From Volutella citrinella (taxonomy: Eukaryota > Ascomycota > Sordariomycetes > Hypocreales > Nectriaceae): a stretch of 64,000 bases of DNA. Location of the stretch: positions 1,736,001-1,800,000 of the forward strand of contig JAWZSP010000008.1 in assembly GCA_034401135.1 (NCBI GenBank), given 5' to 3'. The translations under genes were made by a program, and so were the position numbers. The notes below the pieces were generated by a model that saw only the letters and a program-made list of their open reading frames with translations, ran no database searches and was not told the origin of the DNA. The first letter of the stretch is position 1, and the number at the start of each line of letters is the position of its first letter. Shown here one piece after another: positions 47,965 to 59,638 of this stretch.

Positions 47965-48970
47965 GGCGGGAGGGGAGCGGCGGCGAGGATTGTGGTTGGG
48001 GGTGGGAGAGTGGCTGCGCTTGGCCGAACTGTTGTCGCGATGCCCGTGGTGTCGTCGATTCGTATGGGTCCACTGCTGGCTCTGCTGCTCCATTCCAGAG
48101 CACGTGACATCCACCGACATCAACTTCCATGCACAATTGGGAGCACATCATGATGAAAAAGGGGTGTTGAGTCACTACTTGTAGCATTGCCAGTTGATTT
48201 GCTTCGATCATCCAATTACGGTCAATTTATTCTCGCTTGAAACACATAATGAAATTTCTCCCCTTCACCATCACATTGGCGACTCCCTTGTCCATGCTTC
48301 CCCTTCACGCAATACTTCCGGGTTCATGTTCCAACATGACATTGAACAATTGGCTCTCGTTAATTGATGTTGAGTTTTAGTGCAGCTCGCCGGCTACACA
48401 AGAGGGCTCATCTTTTGATGTGGTAGACTGAAACTGGGTGTCGCTTCTATGAGACCAAGTCAGACTAGGCCATTCATCCTTTGGATATTTGCCTGGCTCA
48501 CCATGAGGTCGTTCTCTACTCAAGTTGGAATCGAATGTCTGGTGTCTGATTCTTAATGAGCACACCACGCTGCCTTTCTGTGAGTTCTTGCGGGTTCTGT
48601 GGCTTGAAAATTTCCTTTGGCGTCTTCGAAGTTTGTGTTCTAAATTATTCCTTGTCGGGGATAAGTTGATCGAATGGTATCTCACGAAGCAGGGGCTGGC
48701 AAGTTAGCGTGTAGCGTCCCTAGTCTTACCAGCAAAATTAAGTTCGTCACAATTGGGCAAGGAGAAAGCGTGAGACGGCTCATTTATTCATTCATTCTGG
48801 CAATAATGTTAGTAAAAGCATGCTATTGTTTGGCGCAATGGTCTATACCAGGTCGGCGTGTGACAAACACAGGACCACATTCATCTCCTGTACTACATAT
48901 GATCAGCAACTCTTCGTCATGAGATTTCGGATAGGCGGACAACTCTGCATATAAAAAGGAGAAGAAAAAC
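47965..48970. other. Intergenic
   Basis: About 1 kb between LUC7 and the microexon gene. It is more AT-rich than the housekeeping regions. No frame looks coding. Confidence 0.4.
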
Positions 48971-49031
48971 CTGCATATAATACCGTCAGCTAGTATATCA
49001 ACCGGTAATCGCCATGGCACAAGTAACTCAC
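48971..49031 (-). other. 3' UTR intron of microexon gene A
   Basis: Starts two bases after the TGA (TGATT then GTGAGT) and ends ATATGCAG, with a GCTGAC branch sequence. The same position relative to the stop codon is seen in gene B. Confidence 0.5.
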
Positions 49032-49033
49032 AA

Positions 49034-49852
49034 TCAGCCCTGCTGAGGGGCCTCTCCAGCCTCGTCCTGCCGGGCCTGTTCGGCCTACATAGGAGAGTTA
49101 GTGAGTCGGTCATGGGGCAGGGATGTCGACTTACCTCTTCAACGGCCTCCCAGTACTTTTGAGCCCGTATTGTTAGTGCGAAGCAATTGGTGCGAGTAGC
49201 AGGGTAAGAAACACGACCTACGGCCATCATCCGTCGAGCGAACTGGCATTACTTCCGTATTAGTTCAAACATCTGGAAGAAGATGGGTGTGCTAAAAATT
49301 CACGTCCAATCGTATCCGAAGAGCCTTATTTAGCCCCTATGTTAGCTCTGATGAGCAATAGGGAGCACAAAGCTGTGACTTACCGCAATCTGGCGGCTGA
49401 TTTGCTATGATTCTCGTTAGTCTGGTTAGGCAATGTATCAGAAACCGCTCGCCTTACCTCCACCTGCCTCTCCCAATGCTTTCACAAGGCCGCATCAGCC
49501 TACTGGTTCAAGGTTCAAGATGGGACATCTACTTACGGCGGCTCGGGCCCTGGCGTACTATTTTGACTTGTTAATAGCATTCAAATGGCAGCAGGAATTA
49601 GACTTACATCAACGCAGCCAAGCTACCACAGTCTGCTGTCAATTTCACTACCATCGTTACATGCGCATACCGCAACAGACAGGGCTGCTCACCCGGGGCT
49701 GGGGGGATGGGCCGCCTGCGTTAGCAGCAATGTCGTAAATAGGTCAAACAATTTGAACTTACGCGTCTCAAGACTTGAATCTATGGGCCAAGTTAGTGAT
49801 GTGGTTCTGGGAGTTGTGCTTCCAACTAATGTGTGCTGCTTACACGGGCCAT
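49034..49852 (-). CDS. Microexon heptad gene A (novel, unnamed)
   Basis: I read eleven coding exons from splice signals: 49852-49844, 49780-49763, 49698-49693, 49622-49608, then six 21-nt exons 49557-49537, 49478-49458, 49404-49384, 49324-49304, 49242-49222, 49155-49135, and a last exon 49084-49034 ending TGA. All are phase 0 and give 74 residues. The 21-nt exons encode YARARAA, HWERQVE, QISRQIA, ALRIRLD, FARRMMA and YWEAVEE. Hydrophobic residues fall at positions 2 and 6 of most heptads, the a/d spacing of a coiled coil, so one exon is one heptad. Introns are about 50-65 nt with clear donors (GTAAG, GTGAA, GTAGG) and branch sites such as CACTAAC. The 6-nt third exon is the least certain; a 23-nt alternative (49715-49693) would break the frame. 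Noncoding exons may lie upstream. No known family recognised. Confidence 0.65.
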
Positions 49853-50910
49853 GTTTCAATTGTTTGACTGATTACCGAACGGCTCGGTTAGTAGCACGAA
49901 CACACCAAGGCATGGGCGTCCACGGCGACTTACGAAAAGTTTGTATTTAAAAAAAAAGACTGGAGAGCATTAGCCAAACTAAACTGACCCGGAATCCGGT
50001 GCAAACCGGTCATCGACCGCACTGGACGCTGGGGATACGCACATGGGACGATGGAAGGCTGAGGAAAAGAAGAGAAGAAAGGAGGGCGCCACCGACTGGA
50101 AGAAATTTATCAATATGGTGGACAGACAGCCTGAGCATGTGCCACTCACCCGTGGGCGGTCTGCCAGGTGGCAGCTGGTGCCATCATATGCAGGTTTGCA
50201 GTGGGCAACTGGCAACGGGTGGGAGACTGGCAGAGTACTCAGAACGAGGCGAGATGGACGACAGAGCATGGCAGATTCGCGTGCGTTACAATAAAATCAT
50301 CAATGAAATGTCCGGACAGTTGGCTTCCATCATCGCCAGATGCTGTCGACGGTGCGAAAACGGTCAGGGGGTGGAAATGCAAACTCCCAAACATTCACAG
50401 CTCTACAGGCCTTTTCGATATTTGAACCAGTGACTACTGTTCAATTGGATCTTCTCACTTGTTTACCCGTTTGGATAAAGAGAAAGGGGGTCTAGTCACG
50501 ATATGGTCTTACAGTGAAACTTCAGTCCCCGATGACGGACGAGTCGGATACCAGAGATTGAGCCAGAGGGCCGCCGACAGGGCGCCAAGAAGCTGCAGTC
50601 AAAGCTCCCAGCCGAAGGAACCAGCCATTGGGCAATCCCGTTCTCTCCCGTTCTCATGCATACGCAAACAGAGGGTCTGGTGAGTAAACCCGGTTGGCCT
50701 GGGAAATATGAGTTATGTAAGCAACTCAAGCCGTTCGGAGCCCGGAGCCTCCGGTGTCCGAAATCCCCCCAGCTTTTGATTGCGCCTCTCAATCGCTACC
50801 GCCGCAGCTCCATTGCCATCAATTCAAGTTTGTCTGTTTGCCACACTCGGATGCCCCGAGGGCCCGAAACAAGTACCTAATCAATTTGTGCAACGGTCTC
50901 TGCAGCCGTG
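49853..50910. other. Divergent promoter of microexon gene A and the Zn2Cys6 gene
   Basis: 1.06 kb. On the minus strand, splice-like signals (GTAAGTCGCC at about 49932, and an acceptor GGTAATCAG with CTAACC branch just before the exon with the ATG) suggest a 5' UTR intron of gene A. No other gene seen. Confidence 0.4.
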
Positions 50911-53492
50911 ATGGATCATGACATGACAGAAGAGCACGACGCCTCGCCTGGAGACCGTGAGGATGGAGGGGCCGGCGCAGTGAACGAGCTTTCGCATGCT
51001 GTGAGTTGGTCCAGAAGAACAGATTCTCGAGTTCATTTTTAGCTGACATTTTAGTGTGACCACTGCCGCCGAAGAAAGGTGTGCCTGTCCCCCTTGTCTT
51101 GTTCTCCACGCCAACTAAACACTGAACAGGTCAGATGCAGCAGAGGCCTGCCATGTCTACAATGCTCGGGACTGGGGGCGTCATGCACCTACAACATGGG
51201 GCACAAGCCCAGAGTCCGTCGGGAGCGTGTCAGGATCTCCAACACCCTGTAGCTACTTCCCCATCTTCAACGTCTGCTAGCTAGAGCAATGCTAACACCC
51301 TAACAGTGAAGGCAGCGTGGAACACATTGCAAAGACGGTGGACGAGCTCAAGCTGATGATGGAAGACCTTTTACTACCGAGCGACTCGGCCGATCGTAAT
51401 GCCCGTGCAACGGCACCAAGGCGCGCTGCTGCTCCAACAGCCCCGCGGCCGTCGTCGTCCCGGCCCTCGCCACCGCCATCTGCTCCAGTTGCCGCAACGC
51501 CAGGCAAGTCGTCCTCGGCACCACAGCCAGAGTATAGCGGCGAGTCATCCGCCTTTGCGCATGCCTTGTTCGCCACTGCTTTCCTACAGAATGCCGTCGG
51601 CAACAGCTCCTCCCTCCACGTCACCACAGAAATGGGCCCTGTACTCCAAACGCTGAACAGCATCGCCAACGCTCAAAAACAAACGACCGAGTCTGTTGAC
51701 ATCCTCTACCCCCACGCCAGGAAAGTCGAGGATGGACAGTGGCTCCAGAAATTCCCATCTCCTCCAGCCGAGAAAGTATTTGCTAGTCTCAGGCTTGCTC
51801 AAGGTCCGCACTTAGGGAGATCGAAATTGCGGACACCCATGATGTTAACACGCACAACAGAACACGAAGATATTCACACCGCGTGGATGACTGAATTTGA
51901 GTCGCTTGGCCACTTTACCGAGTACGCTATCAAGGCCTGCGCACCTGGCCCTGCATCCGAAGAGGAACTCATTATCGCCAATATTGGAATGTACTGGCTA
52001 TTTCTTGAATGTGCAGCAACCGTTGACGACACAGAGGTTGCATCGGACTATGAGGCGCAGGCCATGCTGTGCCGAGAAAATACTGAGACCTTGCTGGCAA
52101 ATCTCAAGTTTCATATCCCGAGCACCATAGATTCTGTGTACGCCTTGAACATGGCTGTGCGTGGAATGTCCCATACAAAGTTTATTCTATTGACGGAGTT
52201 GTTTTAGTCAACATATTGCATGCAGATGATCAAAATATCCGCCGCGTGGGCTTTCATCACCACAGCATCTTCCATCATGCAGATCCTTGGCATGCACAGC
52301 GCCGCATTCCTCTATTCTGAGCCACCTGCACAGCAAAGACGCAGGCTGCGGCTGTTTTGGACCGTCTACTGCAACGAACGGTGCATCTCGCTTCGCGTCG
52401 GGCGGTCATCAAACCTTCGAGACGGCGACATCACAGTCCCACGGCCGGAGCGCAGCTCTGGGCCCGATTCATTCATGAATTGCCTGACGCCTATACTGAT
52501 TGAAAACTGCTTTCTTCAAGGGCGCGTCTATGAGGAAATTTACAGTCCTAGAGCCTTCTTGCAGCCCGAGGCAGTGAGATACGCGAACGCCGAAGCCCTT
52601 GCAGCGGAAATCAACAATGTCATGAAAGCTGAAGAAACATTCTCGGTCTGTTGCAATTTATAGCCTTCGTTACTTGCCCTTCAGGCTAACACGACAGCAG
52701 AAGGAAGTGGGGTCGCAATTTGCAGGCTCCGATTCTCCTCTGTCTCAAATCTGGTACAAATCAGACAGAATCGAGATGTTGTCCATGTTAACGCTCGTGC
52801 ATCGCAGTCTGCCGACGGGAGAGTTCACTAGGTCTTCGTTTTCTGAAGAATGCATCAGCTACGCCCGCAAAACTTTAGAAGAACACCAGCAGTGTGTCAC
52901 TCTACTGAACGAGCCGGGCACCAAGACGACCTATGTTGATCTCTTCATCCGATGGTGGGCCGCACCCCGACAGTAATTACAACTGGCATTAATGTAGCGT
53001 TTCAGGTCCTTGCTTCACTCGCCGTTTGTACCCTTCACAATCCTGTTCTGTCACGCCATCGAGTCGTCAAGCACGGCTGACCTCGACGCAATGAAGATGT
53101 TTCTCGACACCAGCGAGGAAACTGTATACCGATCACACCATGGGTCCAACAAGAACCAACTCCGTCTGTTCCAGACCCTCTATAGCGTTGCGGTCAGGTT
53201 TACTAGCCTCAAGCAGAACGAGTCCCTGGGAAATAGCCCACTACCTGGCCCTCGCTGTTTGGGTCTAGATACTAGCCGCGTCGGGCTTGCTACAGGGTCA
53301 TCCGACTCGCACACCTTGAATTTTGGCCCAAAAAGTAGCGCGTTTACGGACCCAGCCACTGAAGCGGCTGCTGCTCTGTCGGAGGATCTGTTTGCATCGA
53401 ACCTGGGTTTTCAGGCTGACCCTTCTGGGAGTCAGCTTGCTACATGGTTTGCAAGCAATCAGCAAATCATGAGGATGATTGAGAACGTTTAG
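50911..53492 (+). CDS. Zn2Cys6 transcription factor
   Basis: Seven exons (50911-51000, 51055-51078, 51130-51248, 51307-52156, 52226-52645, 52698-52954, 53006-53492) give 748 residues. The binuclear zinc cluster at about residues 31-56 is canonical, C-x2-C-x6-C-x5-C-x2-C-x6-C, starting CDHCRRRKVRC and spread over exons 2 and 3. A linker rich in Ala, Pro and Ser follows, then the fungal transcription-factor middle homology region (for example ILGMHSAAFLYSEPPAQQRRR, LRLFWTVYCNERCISLRVGR, DITVPRP). Exons 5 and 6 meet at a CAGCAG acceptor, so one Gln is optional. The gene is divergent from microexon gene A and lies between genes A and B, so it could regulate them; this is inferred only from position. 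Confidence 0.88.
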
Positions 53493-56400
53493 CTACTCCC
53501 AGAGCCTGGCATGACGATGAAATGTATTCGCTTCTACTTCGATGGCAAATATAGGGATTCTACGGGTGGTGTGGGCACGATGTCTCCCGGGATTAATTTC
53601 CATCGCCTACTCGTCCGTGATAGCGCTCGGCTGATGTCCACATAACATTCACTACAGACAGACCTTCAGCTGATGTAGGGGATAATTTGGCAATTTAATT
53701 CTTGAACCCCAGGTCCCCAATGTAATAAGAATTAAGGATTATCAGCAGAATTTGACCCCGATGCACACTCTCACACAACGCCTCGCCCATTCCATTGACC
53801 CATCCACGCCAAAGCTCCTCCAACAACGACCAGGTATCCGGGCGGCACCACGAGGAGGTTGTAAGAGTCCGACTTCGCCGCCCGTGCCTTCCCTTCCGAA
53901 AGGCACTCCCCCCGGAGTTTTTTTTCTTTCTGGAACTCTGCTTGTGGCTCGCCAGCTTCACAAGGGGGGGAAGGTCTGTGGACTGACTCAAATTGGGTGC
54001 TGTTTCACTGTTTCAGTCACCTCAAAGTGGACTCCATGGCTCAGAGTTTTCGGCTTTCGCGTGGCTCAAATGAGGACTTCCTGACTTTCTGTTCTTGTCA
54101 ACTCAAATTGGCCACCCAGGATCGCTGCATCATTCGATGTCATTCTATTTACTTTCTTCAGCGGGCTAGTGTACACTCTTTGCAGTGTCTCCACTCTCGG
54201 GGGAACTTCTTTGTCTTCTTGAAGTCTTTCATCTCCCGTAGCGTTGCCTGGGCATTCTCAGTGAGGAGGATCTGTCTGTTGTCATCATCTCTGTCTCAGA
54301 ATGAAGCCTTCATCCCACCAAGTATTTAGAGCCTCGATGAGTACATCGCGCTGTTGTTCTGCGTGCTTGCTCTCATTGTTCTGTTCTTCTTGACTTTCTT
54401 CTTGAAGGAGCGTATCGGGTCTTTCATTTGGGAACAGTGTGATGCTGCGGCCGTATCATCCTCCCAGACGTCTGCTGCCTTGAACTCTTCGATCTGGGGC
54501 AGCTTTTTATGTGCTGGCTCATTGCGGTCACTGTAATCCAGTCAAGCAACATTGCTCTTCCGACACCGATCATCTTGGTACGTATGGGGTCGCCCACGTG
54601 TGGCCTACCATTTTCCCTTCAGCAACGAACTGGTCCTGTAGTACTTCTGGCCGTTCTGGGACTGTTTGTTCTTTCCTATAAAGATACGACCACTGAAATT
54701 AGCAATCTGCATAAGTTAAGACAAATAACGCTGGCGGCAACCTACCACGCAGGCTGTGATCCGAAAAAAAAAAGGATCCAAAGATGAATCAGCCCGGGCT
54801 AATTTGTAATCTAGTGCAGACAGGTCATCGATATGCATTCCCCAGGTCCTTGTGCACACTTGCAGAGACGATGGAGTGCGGGGGAGGAGATAGGGCGGAG
54901 GGGGTGGAGGAGAGGTGGCTCGGGGGGGAGGAGGGCTCGGGGAAGAGAATGAAGGACGGAGGGTGGAGGAAAGAAGAGGAAATTGAGTGCGCGACCACCG
55001 TCTGGTAGATTTTAGCTGGCGGCAAGAACGGAGGCCCAGGTGACGGCAGCTGCCAGGCACTCGGTCAAAAGTTGTAGCTGGCAAATTGGAAGGAGCCAAC
55101 CGAGACGAGTCGATCCAAAAGTGCGTACCTTAGGCATTATCATTTCACTGCTGCCATCAGTACTAGTACCTACTACTAGTAGTAGTACTCCTAGTAATTA
55201 CTCCCTAAACATTGCTACTCAAATACGCGCAGAGTTCAGAACCCAACAACACTCCTCCAAGCTGCCAGGGTGGTAGCTCCAGCACTTCATTGCACAAGCG
55301 CAAACGCGATGGCGATGTGCCTGAAAGTTATTGACGGCACCGAGGCTTGATCTTCCTCGCAAGACTGGTCGCACAATGTCCCAGAGTCGAAAGAAATTGG
55401 GGATGACGTCGCGAATGTCGCCTCTAAAATGACACGGATCTAACAAGACTGTCCTCGTCGCAAGCTTCAAATTGATCGCCAAAGCCGCAGACTAAGAGGG
55501 GGCACTTCAAAGACAGAAGCAAAAGACCTAAGAACTTGGAGAGCAGTCAAGCATGAAGGAGAACCGCGAAACTAAAAGAGACAATCACTGTTTCTTAGGC
55601 GACCACTGTGCCTACCTTAGTACACGTTTCCCGTGATCAGACATGCAACCATGGTCCGTGTAAGCAGCGCAATCAAACCTCCACGTCTATGCTCCATTCA
55701 CTGACATGGTCTACAGAGAGAAGCTATTCCCTCTCCTCGATATCCCAAATTTCATCACCAGAGCAAGCCGAGCGATATCGACAGACCGCAGATTCAGTCT
55801 AAGCTCCTGTCCTACAAGAGATGGCTGATATGAAAGGAAAAGGGCAGAGCCAGCGGTCACCAGGCAGACCAACTAGATCGGGGATAGGACAATCTCTGGG
55901 AAAGACGGAGGGCATAGCAGGATGCATGGTTGGTGTCACTATCTTACCATCACCACCCTGCCCCTAAACAACGGAATGAGTCCTAATAGCAACCTATCCC
56001 ACGCCTAATATGATTCCTACTCGTCCCTACCCTAACATTTCCAACACCTAATCCCATCCTGGGTCGGCTTAGGTTTGCGTTTAGTCATGCTTAGAGCTTA
56101 CTGACAAAGCGACACGATGGTATGGATTTAGGCATTCGGCTTTGCAGCGTTCGGTGGCGTTGGAGTCCTACGCCATCTTGGACTTGATCTGTCCGTTCCT
56201 GCACGGAACCATATTTTTCCTCACAAGCTTCCGCGAAGCATCAATGTCTCGAACTGCCCAACTACGGGCTTTCTAGGCTGAGGTTTCAAAATAGGCATCT
56301 CAGTGAGGGCGCTTTCATTTCAAGTCTGAAGTCGGGTATAGAAAATAAGAACTAGGCCATCTGGTGCGACGCTCCTTCGATGGAGACCTCCAAACTACCT

Positions 56401-56534
56401 CTTCGGCTGGGGCCTCGGTGGAACGACAGTCCCTCGAGTCATAAACTGCCCATGGCCCCTGATGTAGTTGGTTTGTCGCTGCCCAGCTTTTCGCTTCGTG
56501 AATTTCGCCATGCCAGATCTCGCGTGAACCGCAA
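53493..56534. other. 3-kb gene-poor stretch
   Basis: No gene recognised. The segment holds a 16-bp palindrome at 55170-55185 and, from about 55970 to 56060, a cytosine-rich stretch with scattered CCTAA/CCCTA units. Frames between 53.7 and 54.8 kb look like stop-interrupted fragments. Confidence 0.45.
55170..55185. repeat. 16-bp perfect palindrome
   Basis: CTACTACTAGTAGTAG is self-complementary and contains the core CTACTAGTAG also found at 3877-3886. Confidence 0.8.
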
Positions 56535-56591
56535 CTAGAGAAAACATGTCAATCAATGGATTTGAATAACAAAATGCGGACGAAAACTTAC
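56535..56591 (-). other. 3' UTR intron of microexon gene B
   Basis: Begins two bases after the TAA (TAAAT then GTAAGT) and ends TTTTCTCTAG, with a GATTGAC branch. If a different acceptor is used for the last coding exon, this intron would instead join a basic C-terminal frame that runs to about 56400. Confidence 0.5.
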
Positions 56592-56593
56592 AT

Positions 56594-57885
56594 TTAGGCC
56601 TCGGCGGCCTCCTCCGCCTCGGCCTCCTCGAGGCGCACCTCTTCTTCCAAGATTAGTCGCTTTATAGCCAGTTAGCGATGTTTTCTAGTCTTAGATAAGA
56701 CACAATTCCTTACGGTCGCCACATCGCCGGCCATCTTAAATTTATTAGCCTATTAGTAGTGTTACACATAGGACTGTTTGTGATCGCACCTCTCTGTCTT
56801 GGACTGTTCACATGAAGATCAGGAGTTAGTTGACCTCAAGCTGAAAATGGCGTGAATAGATCTCAGCTCACCGCCGCGTCTCTGGCCCAGTACTTAATTG
56901 GCGCGTGGTGTCAGTACATAATGCGCTATTTAGGGTGAGCAATGGACTTGACTTACGGCCGCTTTGGTCACGGCATACTATTATATTCGGTTAGCTTAGG
57001 CGCCTGGAATATCAGATAGATGACAGCCTACCTGTCGTTTCACCTGGAGCCCCTTCATGATTCACATATGTCAGTTCTGCTGAGCACACAAAGTAGAATC
57101 CGACCATGGCTTACCTGAATCTGGAGGGTGATTTCCTACAGATGACATTTTCGTTTAGCTTTTGTACCAAGCAGTACCGAAAGGAAGTACTTGTAGCTGC
57201 TGTTTTTCTTACCTCCACACGGCCCCGCCAGTACTTGGACATTGTTAGCCTGTTTCAGGATCCAAAATCAGATGTCAGATCTCTTACCCGGGCTTTTTTG
57301 TCGGAGTGCTAAATTTTTGTATCAGTCGAATGGGCCGATAAAGTGCTTGTCAAATTGCAAGATACACTCACATCACGCGTGCCAAACTGGAGCAATGAGA
57401 TATTAGTTCCACTCCCACATTCACATACACTATCCACGACAGGCAATGATAATCACGGGTGGCTTTTTTCTAGAAGTAAGTGACTGGTGTTAGAGGCGGT
57501 ATGGCAATTGAGATTTAAAAACAATCCAATGCTTACCGTCTGCGCCTCTGGGGCGCCTTGGTTTTGCTATGATACTGCTTCAGTATACTCCGTGATCGAC
57601 CATCTTCATGTTTGAACTTACGATGGCAGGGCCCGGAGGCCCGGTGGCCGGGGTCACGTTCTACAGTTGTCAGCTATCGAAGTTCCCGATTCCCATGGTG
57701 TGTTTAACGGACTCGATTGCCCCCTCTCTGTGGATAAGAATATTAGCAAAGCCCAAGGCCAAGATTTGCTCAAGTACATGCCCCTCGCGAGGCACGGCGG
57801 CCTCCACAGGAGTGATTTCAGTGTGTGGCGGAATATCTGGGGCGGTGACTGTGACCCCCTTCGCCGCATGACGCGGCGAAGTCAT
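56594..57885 (-). CDS. Microexon heptad gene B (novel, unnamed)
   Basis: Proposed phase-0 exons: 57885-57709 (59 codons from MTSPRHAAKGVTV), 57660-57622 (39 nt), 57566-57537 (30 nt), one near 57470-57432 (39 nt, donor uncertain), 57386-57372 (15 nt, FGTRD), then 21-nt exons 57308-57288, 57233-57213, 57135-57115, 57052-57032, 56977-56957, 56892-56872 and 56734-56714, and a last exon 56638-56594 ending TAA. About 163 residues. The 21-nt exons encode HSDKKAR, YWRGRVE, EITLQIQ, GLQVKRQ, YAVTKAA, YWARDAA and MAGDVAT. The first six pair one-to-one with gene A (for example YWRGRVE with HWERQVE, YWARDAA with YWEAVEE). The N-terminus is Pro-rich. The last acceptor is ambiguous (GAAGAAGAG): the third choice gives an acidic tail and stop like gene A. 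A possible 14-nt exon near 56815-56790 does not fit the frame. Family unknown. Confidence 0.6.
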
Positions 57886-58475
57886 CCGGGGTAGGCAGAT
57901 TGCCGAAAATCCGCATTGACAGTGATCTTCTGTTGAGAACAGAGAGGTGGGTAGTTGGCGAGAGAAAGATGTAAAGGGAGGAAGAACGTGAAGTGGGCGA
58001 GGCTCAGCAAGAAATTGTGGAAGTCCGTGCCTGCTGCGCGTGAGGGTGAGTGAGTCCTGAGGCAAGCGCTACCTGCCCTCCTCCCGCCCTCCTTTTCCAT
58101 CTGAGAGTGAGGTGACAGCAGTCAAGACCGAATATCGCCGGCGGGAGGTCTCAACTCCCTGTAGAGATGTGTGAAAGCCAGCGAACGTTATCTGTCCCAG
58201 TGGAGCTAGGGTTCGCCATCGAGGTTCGCCCATCCGCTGTCTTGTAAAACCCTAATACTCTAATAAGCCATGGTCATCCTCCATCAAGGTTGGAACGCCC
58301 GTGACTCACGCACAACGACTTTATATATTGCCAACCCCGCAACCTGGCCTACCTTTCATTTTCTCCATTCATGGCTGCCATTGACAAACGTCTGGTGTCA
58401 CCACACAATCTCGCAAACATCACACACACTAGCAAGCTTCGCGCATCTCAGCAAATTTCACACAATCTCAGGACC
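57886..58475. other. Intergenic, divergent
   Basis: Promoter side of microexon gene B and 5' flank of the 2EXR relic. An in-frame extension of gene B reaches 58065 but has no supporting features. Confidence 0.4.
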
Positions 58476-59638
58476 ATGGCAACGTCGACTTTCCATCCAT
58501 TCCACGCCTACCGTACGAACTGCGGCGACAAATCTGGGAAGCCGCAGTACGACCTACAGATGCTTCCTACATCGCCATTCACGGCCTTTGCGAAGCAGGC
58601 CCAGACGACGAGTATGACTTGAAAGTCATCCTCCCTAACGACAAGAACTCGCCCGAAGATAGCCGATCAGTTTAGCTCTGGGATGGTGGGCTGTGGACTG
58701 CTTGCAGAGAGTCCCGCGATGCTATTAAAAGCTGCCTCAATATGGGCCGTTGGCTGGACAGGACGGAAACTGAGCGCTCTGTGGGAGGCCAGATCCAGAA
58801 ACGACCCCGGTCACCTATCACACGATTCAATGAAGAATGAAATGGCGAAGGCGAAAGATATTCCATTGATCATCTCAGCTTCCTCGTGTACAGCAAACGA
58901 TGCCACTGAAGCCTGGGATCTCATGATTTGACCATTCCAAGACGCATACAGGCTGCATCACTCAAGATTTCTCTACAAGGACACGACGCTTGGCTGGCAG
59001 GCAGGTTACGACGACCACTTATGGCTTTTCGGCAACATGCACATCCCGTCTATGTCGTGGTGGATGTTATATCCGCAGATGTCAAAAGTTGTCCTCGATT
59101 TTGACCCGTCTTGGAATCACGGATTGGAAGAGCCGGAAGAGGCATGGGCGGAGGATTATTGGTCATCTTCTTTTGAGACCGGGGAGCCCCAGCCAAACTT
59201 CTACCACTGGTTCGCGAAGAAAGTCAAAGAGGATTCGTCGCTGGATTCCTTCGGATGATGATGTTTGGAGACGAGTACTGCAACGAGCGCGACGGTGCTC
59301 ACATCTGGCTGATTGACCACGGTCACCATCCGATGACTTCCGAGGACGCAGGAGGCACCAATAGTCAAGGCTCTCCTGACAGCCTGTCAAATGGAACGGT
59401 GTTTTACGATTGCGACGCAGAATACGTCGAGCTGAACCTGGCAAAGCACGGCCCCGGATTTGACAAGGACTCCGCAGCCTACTTTGTTGGAAGATTGTTG
59501 GAGTTTGCCGAAACCGCGGCGGACTGGGAGCGTGGGGAGGCGCTGAACCACGCTGAGCTGGAAGACACTTACCTTGATCCCTACCATGGACCGTACGTGG
59601 ACGACGATTGCATTGGGGTGTTGGTTCGAAAGAAATGA
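58476..59638 (+). pseudogene. Broken 2EXR-family gene
   Basis: The segment starts MATSTFHPFH and, after a one-base frame change near 58505, continues RLPYELRRQIWEAAVRPTD, which is the 2EXR motif (hydrophobic-x-x-LP-x-ELR-x-x-IWEAA) of fungal proteins of unknown function. That frame meets a TAG at 58673-58675, continues protein-like (LWDGGLWTACRESRDAI), and meets further stops. The later part changes frame again: 59037-59258 (NMHIPSMSWWMLYPQM...), then 59255-59638, ending in a normal-looking C-terminus (CIGVLVRKK and TGA). At least two frame changes and several stops cannot all be explained by introns, because I see no donors at those points. It is best read as a recently inactivated gene, about 380 codons when intact. 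Confidence 0.6.

Follow-up and report, generated by a model that had tools for sequence, protein, structure and literature searches.

Do two neighbouring loci of the fungus Volutella citrinella hold genes that are cut into exons of 21 nucleotides (nt), each exon specifying one seven-residue heptad of a coiled coil? The question arises in a 64,000-nt stretch of contig JAWZSP010000008.1 (positions 1736001-1800000; hereafter the window), in which an original prediction, made from the letters alone, had proposed a paralogous pair of minus-strand genes with runs of six (gene A) and seven (gene B) exons of exactly 21 nt. We examined these loci within the window and against the whole genome assembly (45.1 Mb, 26 contigs). 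We consider it likely that A and B are real, duplicated coding genes whose 21-nt phase-0 microexons would be spliced constitutively into small helical proteins. Sequence statistics on the exon chain, the exon lengths and phase, the paralogy of the two genes and their coding composition support this proposal.

Chains of 21-nt exons in two neighbouring loci

Genes A and B occupy neighbouring loci on the minus strand, A at 49867-49032 and the core of B at 57386-56592 (coordinates are those of the window and refer to the minus strand unless marked otherwise). The exons named in the original prediction all lie where it had placed them, and its six and seven exact 21-nt phase-0 exons are all present in our gene models. 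Under a regular-expression rule ([ACT]AG-N21-GTRR[G/T] exons linked by 45-85-nt introns), gene B yields an unbroken run of six such exons; gene A yields a run of only three because one of its donors, GTGAAT, falls outside the rule. By comparison, the longest chain in 200 dinucleotide-resampled windows had three exons once, two in 38 windows and one in 161, and when exon lengths of 12-45 nt were admitted, the sole other three-exon chain in the window consisted of 17-nt exons. A stricter acceptor and donor expression returned zero chains of 21-nt exons and was superseded by this looser rule.

We also searched for chains with a splice model (donor, branch point and acceptor) that carried no frame, stop or equal-length rule and allowed exons of 15-60 nt. 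This frame-free search covered 700 windows of 1.5 kb (264 kb, both strands), as well as 350 windows in each of three resampled sets. In both genes it recovered six 21-nt exons preceded by one of 15 nt, with scores of 146 for A and 112 for B. Outside A and B, no chain in the 264 kb exceeded 38.8, and the resampled sets stayed at or under 45.2; one further row of the scan, scoring 40.5, corresponds to the 3' end of gene A itself. Runs of at least three equal exon lengths occurred in only four of the 700 windows, each of them over A or B, and the length was always 21 nt. When the reading frame was kept (exon lengths in multiples of three, stop-free), the scores were 90.6 for A and 112.5 for B, compared with 36.6 for the next region and a maximum of 25.6 on one resampled minus strand. 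The chains of 21-nt exons in A and B are thus real as sequence features, and unusual.

Paralogy, internal repeats and coding signal

The heptads of the two genes pair in order, as the original prediction had claimed. Exon 1 encodes YARARAA in A (49537..49557) and HSDKKAR in B (57288..57308), exon 2 HWERQVE (49458..49478) and YWRGRVE (57213..57233), exon 3 QISRQIA (49384..49404) and EITLQIQ (57115..57135), exon 4 ALRIRLD (49304..49324) and GLQVKRQ (57032..57052), exon 5 FARRMMA (49222..49242) and YAVTKAA (56957..56977), and exon 6 YWEAVEE (49135..49155) and YWARDAA (56872..56892). All of these exons are 21 nt long and in phase 0. The six in-order pairs have a BLOSUM62 score of 63 with 12 of 42 residues identical; counting the observed order itself, only 5 of the 720 possible orders do at least as well. 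Of 20000 column shuffles, 0.16% reached this score, and in 20000 free shuffles it was never reached. At the DNA level, the best alignment between A and B coincides with the QISRQIA/EITLQIQ exon pair and its flanking acceptor and donor (16 of 21 exon bases; score 34 versus a maximum of 30 in 100 mononucleotide shuffles). The run is preceded in both genes by a matching 15-nt exon, LGCVD in A (49608..49622) and FGTRD in B (57372..57386), and the shared exons are equal in length in 7 of 7 cases, with intervening introns of 50-77 nt. An intron in the 3' untranslated region (3' UTR), starting 2 bases after the stop codon, is likewise common to both. A comparison of the two leaders gave no match, and the introns of A and B, taken in order, show little resemblance (z 0.6-3.3, against a composition-only null and inflated by shared branch motifs). 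That A and B are anciently duplicated paralogous genes is therefore well supported by the sequence comparison, and the paired heptads, the 15-nt exon and the 3' UTR intron of the original prediction stand.

Similarity within each gene points to how the run may have grown. The first two heptad exons are similar to the fifth and sixth, respectively, in both genes (exon 1 against 5 and exon 2 against 6 score 13 and 18 in A and 7 and 12 in B). The mean similarity of exons four apart is 12.5, a value reached by 16 of 720 orders including the observed one, while other distances give at most 2.0, and A exon 1 is closer to B exon 5 (18) than to B exon 1 (5). Although few residues are involved, this suggests that an exon block was duplicated, with exons 1-2 giving rise to exons 5-6, before A and B split.

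The base composition of the exons fits coding. Their GC content is 0.62 in A and 0.63 in B, with intron values of 0.45 and 0.42, respectively. At codon positions 1, 2 and 3 it is 0.67, 0.48 and 0.71 in A and 0.65, 0.47 and 0.78 in B; the rank order is that of the neighbouring HMG-CoA synthase gene (0.56, 0.44 and 0.80). The heptads also carry a hydrophobic bias: positions 2 and 6, which the original prediction had singled out, hold hydrophobic residues 23 times out of 26, versus 23 of 65 at the other positions (Fisher p 3e-6); for position 1 the count is 8 of 13. The heptad-period moment of gene A was reached by 197 of 20000 shuffles.

Gene models

In our model, gene A consists of exons of 24 (with the ATG), 18, 6 and 15 nt, six exons of 21 nt and a last exon, with all coding boundaries in phase 0. 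The predicted product has 74 residues (MAR, IQVLRR, PR, LGCVD, the heptads YARARAA, HWERQVE, QISRQIA, ALRIRLD, FARRMMA and YWEAVEE, and AEQARQDEAGEAPQQG). The gene would thus extend further upstream than originally described, with its ATG at 49852 and the 24-, 18- and 6-nt exons added to those already proposed. The 24-nt exon (49844..49867; donor GTAAGC) codes for MAR from a predicted ATG at 49852-49850, which has the best start context of any of the eight ATGs considered in the enumeration; the intron preceding this exon measures 66 nt and has the branch site ACTAAC. The 18-nt exon IQVLRR (49763..49780; donor GTAAGT, branch ACTAAC) is in phase 0, as is a probable 6-nt exon PR (49693..49698; acceptor CCAG, donor GTGAGC), whose branch site GCTAAC places its A 22 nt before the acceptor. 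With exons shorter than 10 nt barred, the frame-free search chose a 28-nt exon at the same acceptor; this candidate would lose the frame. Downstream of the heptad run, the last coding exon encodes AEQARQDEAGEAPQQG and the stop plus 2 bases (49032..49084; acceptor GTAG; stop ending at 49034) and is followed by the 61-nt 3' UTR intron (48971..49031), whose donor GTGAGT lies 2 bases past TGA (TGA TT, then GTGAGT).

Read by eye, the predicted N-terminus of gene A, MARIQVLRRPRLGCVD, has no evident hydrophobic signal peptide. It is arginine-rich, and its first acidic residue does not occur before position 16, which, as a speculation, would be compatible with a role in mitochondria or in nucleic-acid binding as well.

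Our model of gene B comprises the 15-nt exon, six 21-nt exons, a gap of 137 nt, one more 21-nt exon and a last exon, with a predicted product of 75 residues counted from FGTRD onward. The seventh heptad, MAGDVAT (56714..56734), is without a counterpart in gene A. The last coding exon encodes RLILEEEVRLEEAEAEEAAEA and the stop plus 2 bases (56592..56659; acceptor AAAG; stop ending at 56594), and the 57-nt 3' UTR intron (56535..56591) has its donor GTAAGT 2 bases past TAA (TAA AT, then GTAAGT). Inside the 137-nt gap lies a splice-like 14-nt stretch (56790..56803) with a weak donor, GTGCGA (3.4), and branch-like motifs upstream; it is possibly a decayed heptad exon.

Upstream of FGTRD, three candidate exons of gene B can be drawn. 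The 39-nt NVTPATGPPGPAI (57622..57660; donor GTAAGT) and the 30-nt QNQGAPEAQT (57537..57566; donor GTAAGC, from the chain searches) are tentative. The 39-nt KKATRDYHCLSWI (57431..57469) is doubtful, with a weak donor, GTGTAT, and a 44-nt intron, and at this place the chain searches picked other exons instead (27 nt; 55 nt). Further upstream, at about 57695, we noted by eye an ATG whose surroundings (CACCATGGG) are favourable for initiation; it opens only a short frame, MGIGNFDS-stop, possibly an upstream open reading frame of gene B.

Search for homologues and further family members

A search for the spliced proteins in Pfam, PDB and a protein collection gave no convincing match. The spliced product found only weak matches in Pfam (best E 0.01) and three in PDB (best E 3.3). 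Among 5.8 billion proteins, no homologue was found with spliced A or with an alignment of A and B: one search was without any candidate, and another returned 41 candidates, none at E 10. This search requires shared five-residue words, and such negatives are weak because short spliced products share few exact words and annotation likely misses them.

Within the genome, DNA searches with locus A and locus B each returned the query locus only. The YW/HW 21-nt exon motif has 12 matches in the whole genome, four of them in A or B (reversed-pattern control, 6), and the other eight loci gave chain-search scores of at most 25.2. For the YA/FA exon motif there are 19 matches, three of them in A or B (control, 15); the other 16 loci score at most 34.9, within background. 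Allowing up to three mismatches, the QISRQIA/EITLQIQ exon occurs in A and B only (control, 0), and the 15-nt exon matches A and B with none and 26 other places, all with three (control, 9). These genome-wide motif searches thus gave no third member, the 26 weak matches to the 15-nt exon being in excess over the control and not inspected.

A stretch between the two genes, at about 55010-54640, resembles a diverged copy of gene A's pyrimidine-rich leader (local score 21, reached by 0 of 300 shuffles). By eye, it also has a GATGACC..TGCAC stretch ahead of a T run, similar to the leader of gene A. A DNA search found this stretch to be unique in the genome, and no heptad exons were seen downstream of it. 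It is possibly the relic of a third gene copy.

Proposed mechanism and alternative explanations

We propose that every exon of A and B would be spliced constitutively, so that the heptads follow one another in a single frame and helical register. The product would be a small, highly charged alpha-helical protein of 74 residues in A and 75 from FGTRD in B, and the face on which residues 2 and 6 of every exon lie may serve as a coiled-coil interface for self-pairing or for pairing between A and B. The genes may have grown by duplication of exon blocks, exons 1-2 being copied as 5-6, which would keep frame and register because 21-nt exons are symmetrical. Beyond the statistics given above, we infer splicing as modelled, the coiled-coil product and its pairing, the history of exon duplication, the absence of secretion and any function.

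Several observations count against this proposal. The in-order pairing of heptads is not the top order (maximum 71 versus 63), an outcome to be expected if exons 1-2 and 5-6 are copies of one another. The heptad moment of gene B was reached by 4179 of 20000 shuffles, and that of gene A is slightly greater at a period of 3.4 than at 3.5. The moment is thus clear in A and weak in B, which makes A a fair coiled-coil candidate and leaves B uncertain; taken together with the hydrophobic positions 2 and 6, the originally predicted coiled coil is moderately supported, with the part concerning A faring better than that concerning B. The splice model was set by hand and was not trained on this genome. 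When the minimum exon length was lowered to 10 nt, the frame-free search trimmed one exon of A to 13 nt and two of B to 12 nt (exon 4) and 10 nt. It also shifted the acceptors of the last exons downstream, by 9 nt in A (in frame) and by 16 nt in B, and kept the donor of gene B exon 7 while starting that exon 39 nt upstream. Among the individual sites, the donor GTGAAT of gene A exon 4 is weak, as is the branch site GCAGAC in the intron before LGCVD, and several acceptors across the models are AAG. Enumeration of the 5' exons of gene A gave 284 models, of which the preferred all-phase-0 model ranks only 95th by summed score, a score that rises with intron count. For gene B, none of the enumerated 5' models passed and no start codon was placed, and the 14-nt stretch at 56803-56790 would break the frame. 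The lack of a homologue among the 5.8 billion proteins belongs here as well.

The alternative that survives best, though we consider it unlikely, is that exons are skipped or included in vivo, each locus giving a ladder of helices whose lengths differ by entire heptads, an idea put forward for schistosome micro-exon genes. Because every heptad exon is symmetrical, skipping any of them would preserve frame and register; gene B carries a seventh heptad that A is without, and the short exons and mixed donor strength (GTGAAT, GTAGGT, GTAAGT) could allow skipping. However, most donors and branch sites score well, and the introns are short. In fungi, short introns with good signals favour constitutive, intron-defined splicing. 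In a bolder version, which seems to us slightly less probable again, A and B would belong to a fungal gene family in which the spliceosome sets helix length in whole heptads; each 21-nt exon would be a single coiled-coil unit, genes would lengthen through duplication of exon blocks, and exon choice would yield a coiled-coil ladder and selective pairing of two paralogues that flank a transcription-factor gene.

It is improbable that the introns matter rather than the heptads, either as a splicing requirement to be met before protein is made or as hosts of intronic RNA. The gene A model packs 11 introns into 897 nt (49867-48971) and that of gene B 9 (57386-56535), introns outweigh coding sequence, and both genes have a 3' UTR intron. 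Yet Rfam gave no match at gathering scores in 48500-58500, and the introns are little alike between A and B, whereas their exon lengths and heptads have been retained. At 50-77 nt, the introns are also small for hosts of small nucleolar RNAs.

Still less probable, in our view, is that mobile (introner-like) introns were inserted at regular intervals into a coiled-coil gene that was originally uninterrupted. The regular spacing, the similar intron lengths and a few intron pairs that are alike (best z 3.8, B1-B4, of 105 pairs) would fit such an origin, but the mean z over the 105 A/B pairs is 0.97, to which branch motifs add, and there are no near-identical copies, intron copies elsewhere in the genome having been sought by DNA search with each locus only. 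Moreover, insertion gives no reason for an exact in-register spacing of 21 nt, and the similarity between exon blocks points to exon duplication instead. Finally, chance AG..GT pairs or decaying pseudogenes are very improbable: the unplaced 5' start and frame-breaking 14-nt stretch of gene B and the empty protein searches would suit them, but the chain scores lie far over background and resampling, and the two genes are paralogous and have kept their exon lengths with only 12 of 42 residues identical. Constitutive splicing of two duplicated coding genes remains our preferred explanation.

The gene between A and B

A putative Zn2Cys6 transcription factor gene, read by eye, lies between A and B at about 50911-53492 on the plus strand. 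The start of its zinc cluster, CDHCRRRK, is encoded on a 24-nt phase-0 microexon (51055-51078, plus strand), which recalls the Xlr2 microexon of Trichoderma (PMC11121469). When a piece of this putative protein was searched, Pfam assigned no family to it, and a protein of [Neocosmospora] mangrovei matched it at 56% identity; this relative opens with a similar zinc cluster. The taxonomy places the name [Neocosmospora] mangrovei under Fusarium, Nectriaceae, and a single match of this kind is a hint of kinship only.

Relation to known microexon genes

The coding part of schistosome micro-exon genes consists mostly of very small symmetrical exons, and in-frame skipping or gain is possible; their exons measure 3-81 bp, their introns reach up to 5 kb, and their products are said to bear a signal peptide and to be platyhelminth-restricted (PMC4350168; PMC10526429). 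The predicted models of A and B are similar in that 6 of 6 and 7 of 7 heptad exons, respectively, are 21 nt long and in phase 0. They differ in that their exons are uniformly of 21 nt with one heptad each, that their introns are mostly of 50-77 nt, and that they lie in a fungal genome, with no sequence match found. Aphid bicycle genes, implicated as plant gall effectors, have about 17 exons on average, many of them small internal exons that are nearly all in phase 2 (PMC9168663), and saposin-like folds have been described for them (PMC13041983). Their sequences diverge while gene structure persists, which makes structure the better homology signal (PMC9168663). A and B resemble them in having many tiny exons of one phase and diverged sequences with the structure kept, although the phase is 0 and not 2. 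In the K-box of plant MADS proteins, two tandem micro-exons encode part of an oligomerising coiled-coil region (PMC7714060); these are two exons within a larger transcription factor, whereas in A and B six or seven equal exons make up most of a small protein.

Fungal microexons as such have been reported before. The 2024 abstract on Trichoderma Xlr2 presents a fungal microexon and states that functional microexons were previously undescribed in filamentous fungi (PMC11121469), and other papers mention a one-nucleotide exon in Fusarium CYP621A, an 8-nt exon in a Phanerochaete P450 gene and fungal exons of 2-10 residues (PMC12940212), as well as codon-sized microexons in the NLR-type nank genes of Tuber (as cited in PMC3689799, PMC4986451 and PMC10197012). 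Like A and B, these cases are easily missed by gene finders. They concern large genes with a single microexon or a few, or else codon-sized microexons, and in the passages cited none is described as a run of equal heptad exons. Among the matches listed from the open-licence literature, titles and the starts of abstracts name no such run, and the claim that no fungal family of this design had been described is not contradicted there.

If transcripts confirm the models, exon and protein repeat unit would coincide at seven residues, and the gain, loss or skipping of an exon would change the protein by one structural unit. A and B would then offer a small, tractable fungal model for microexon recognition in intron-dense genes and for the question of the exon as a module. 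More generally, they point to a class of genes that is likely missed by annotation and sequence search and that may be found through gene structure.

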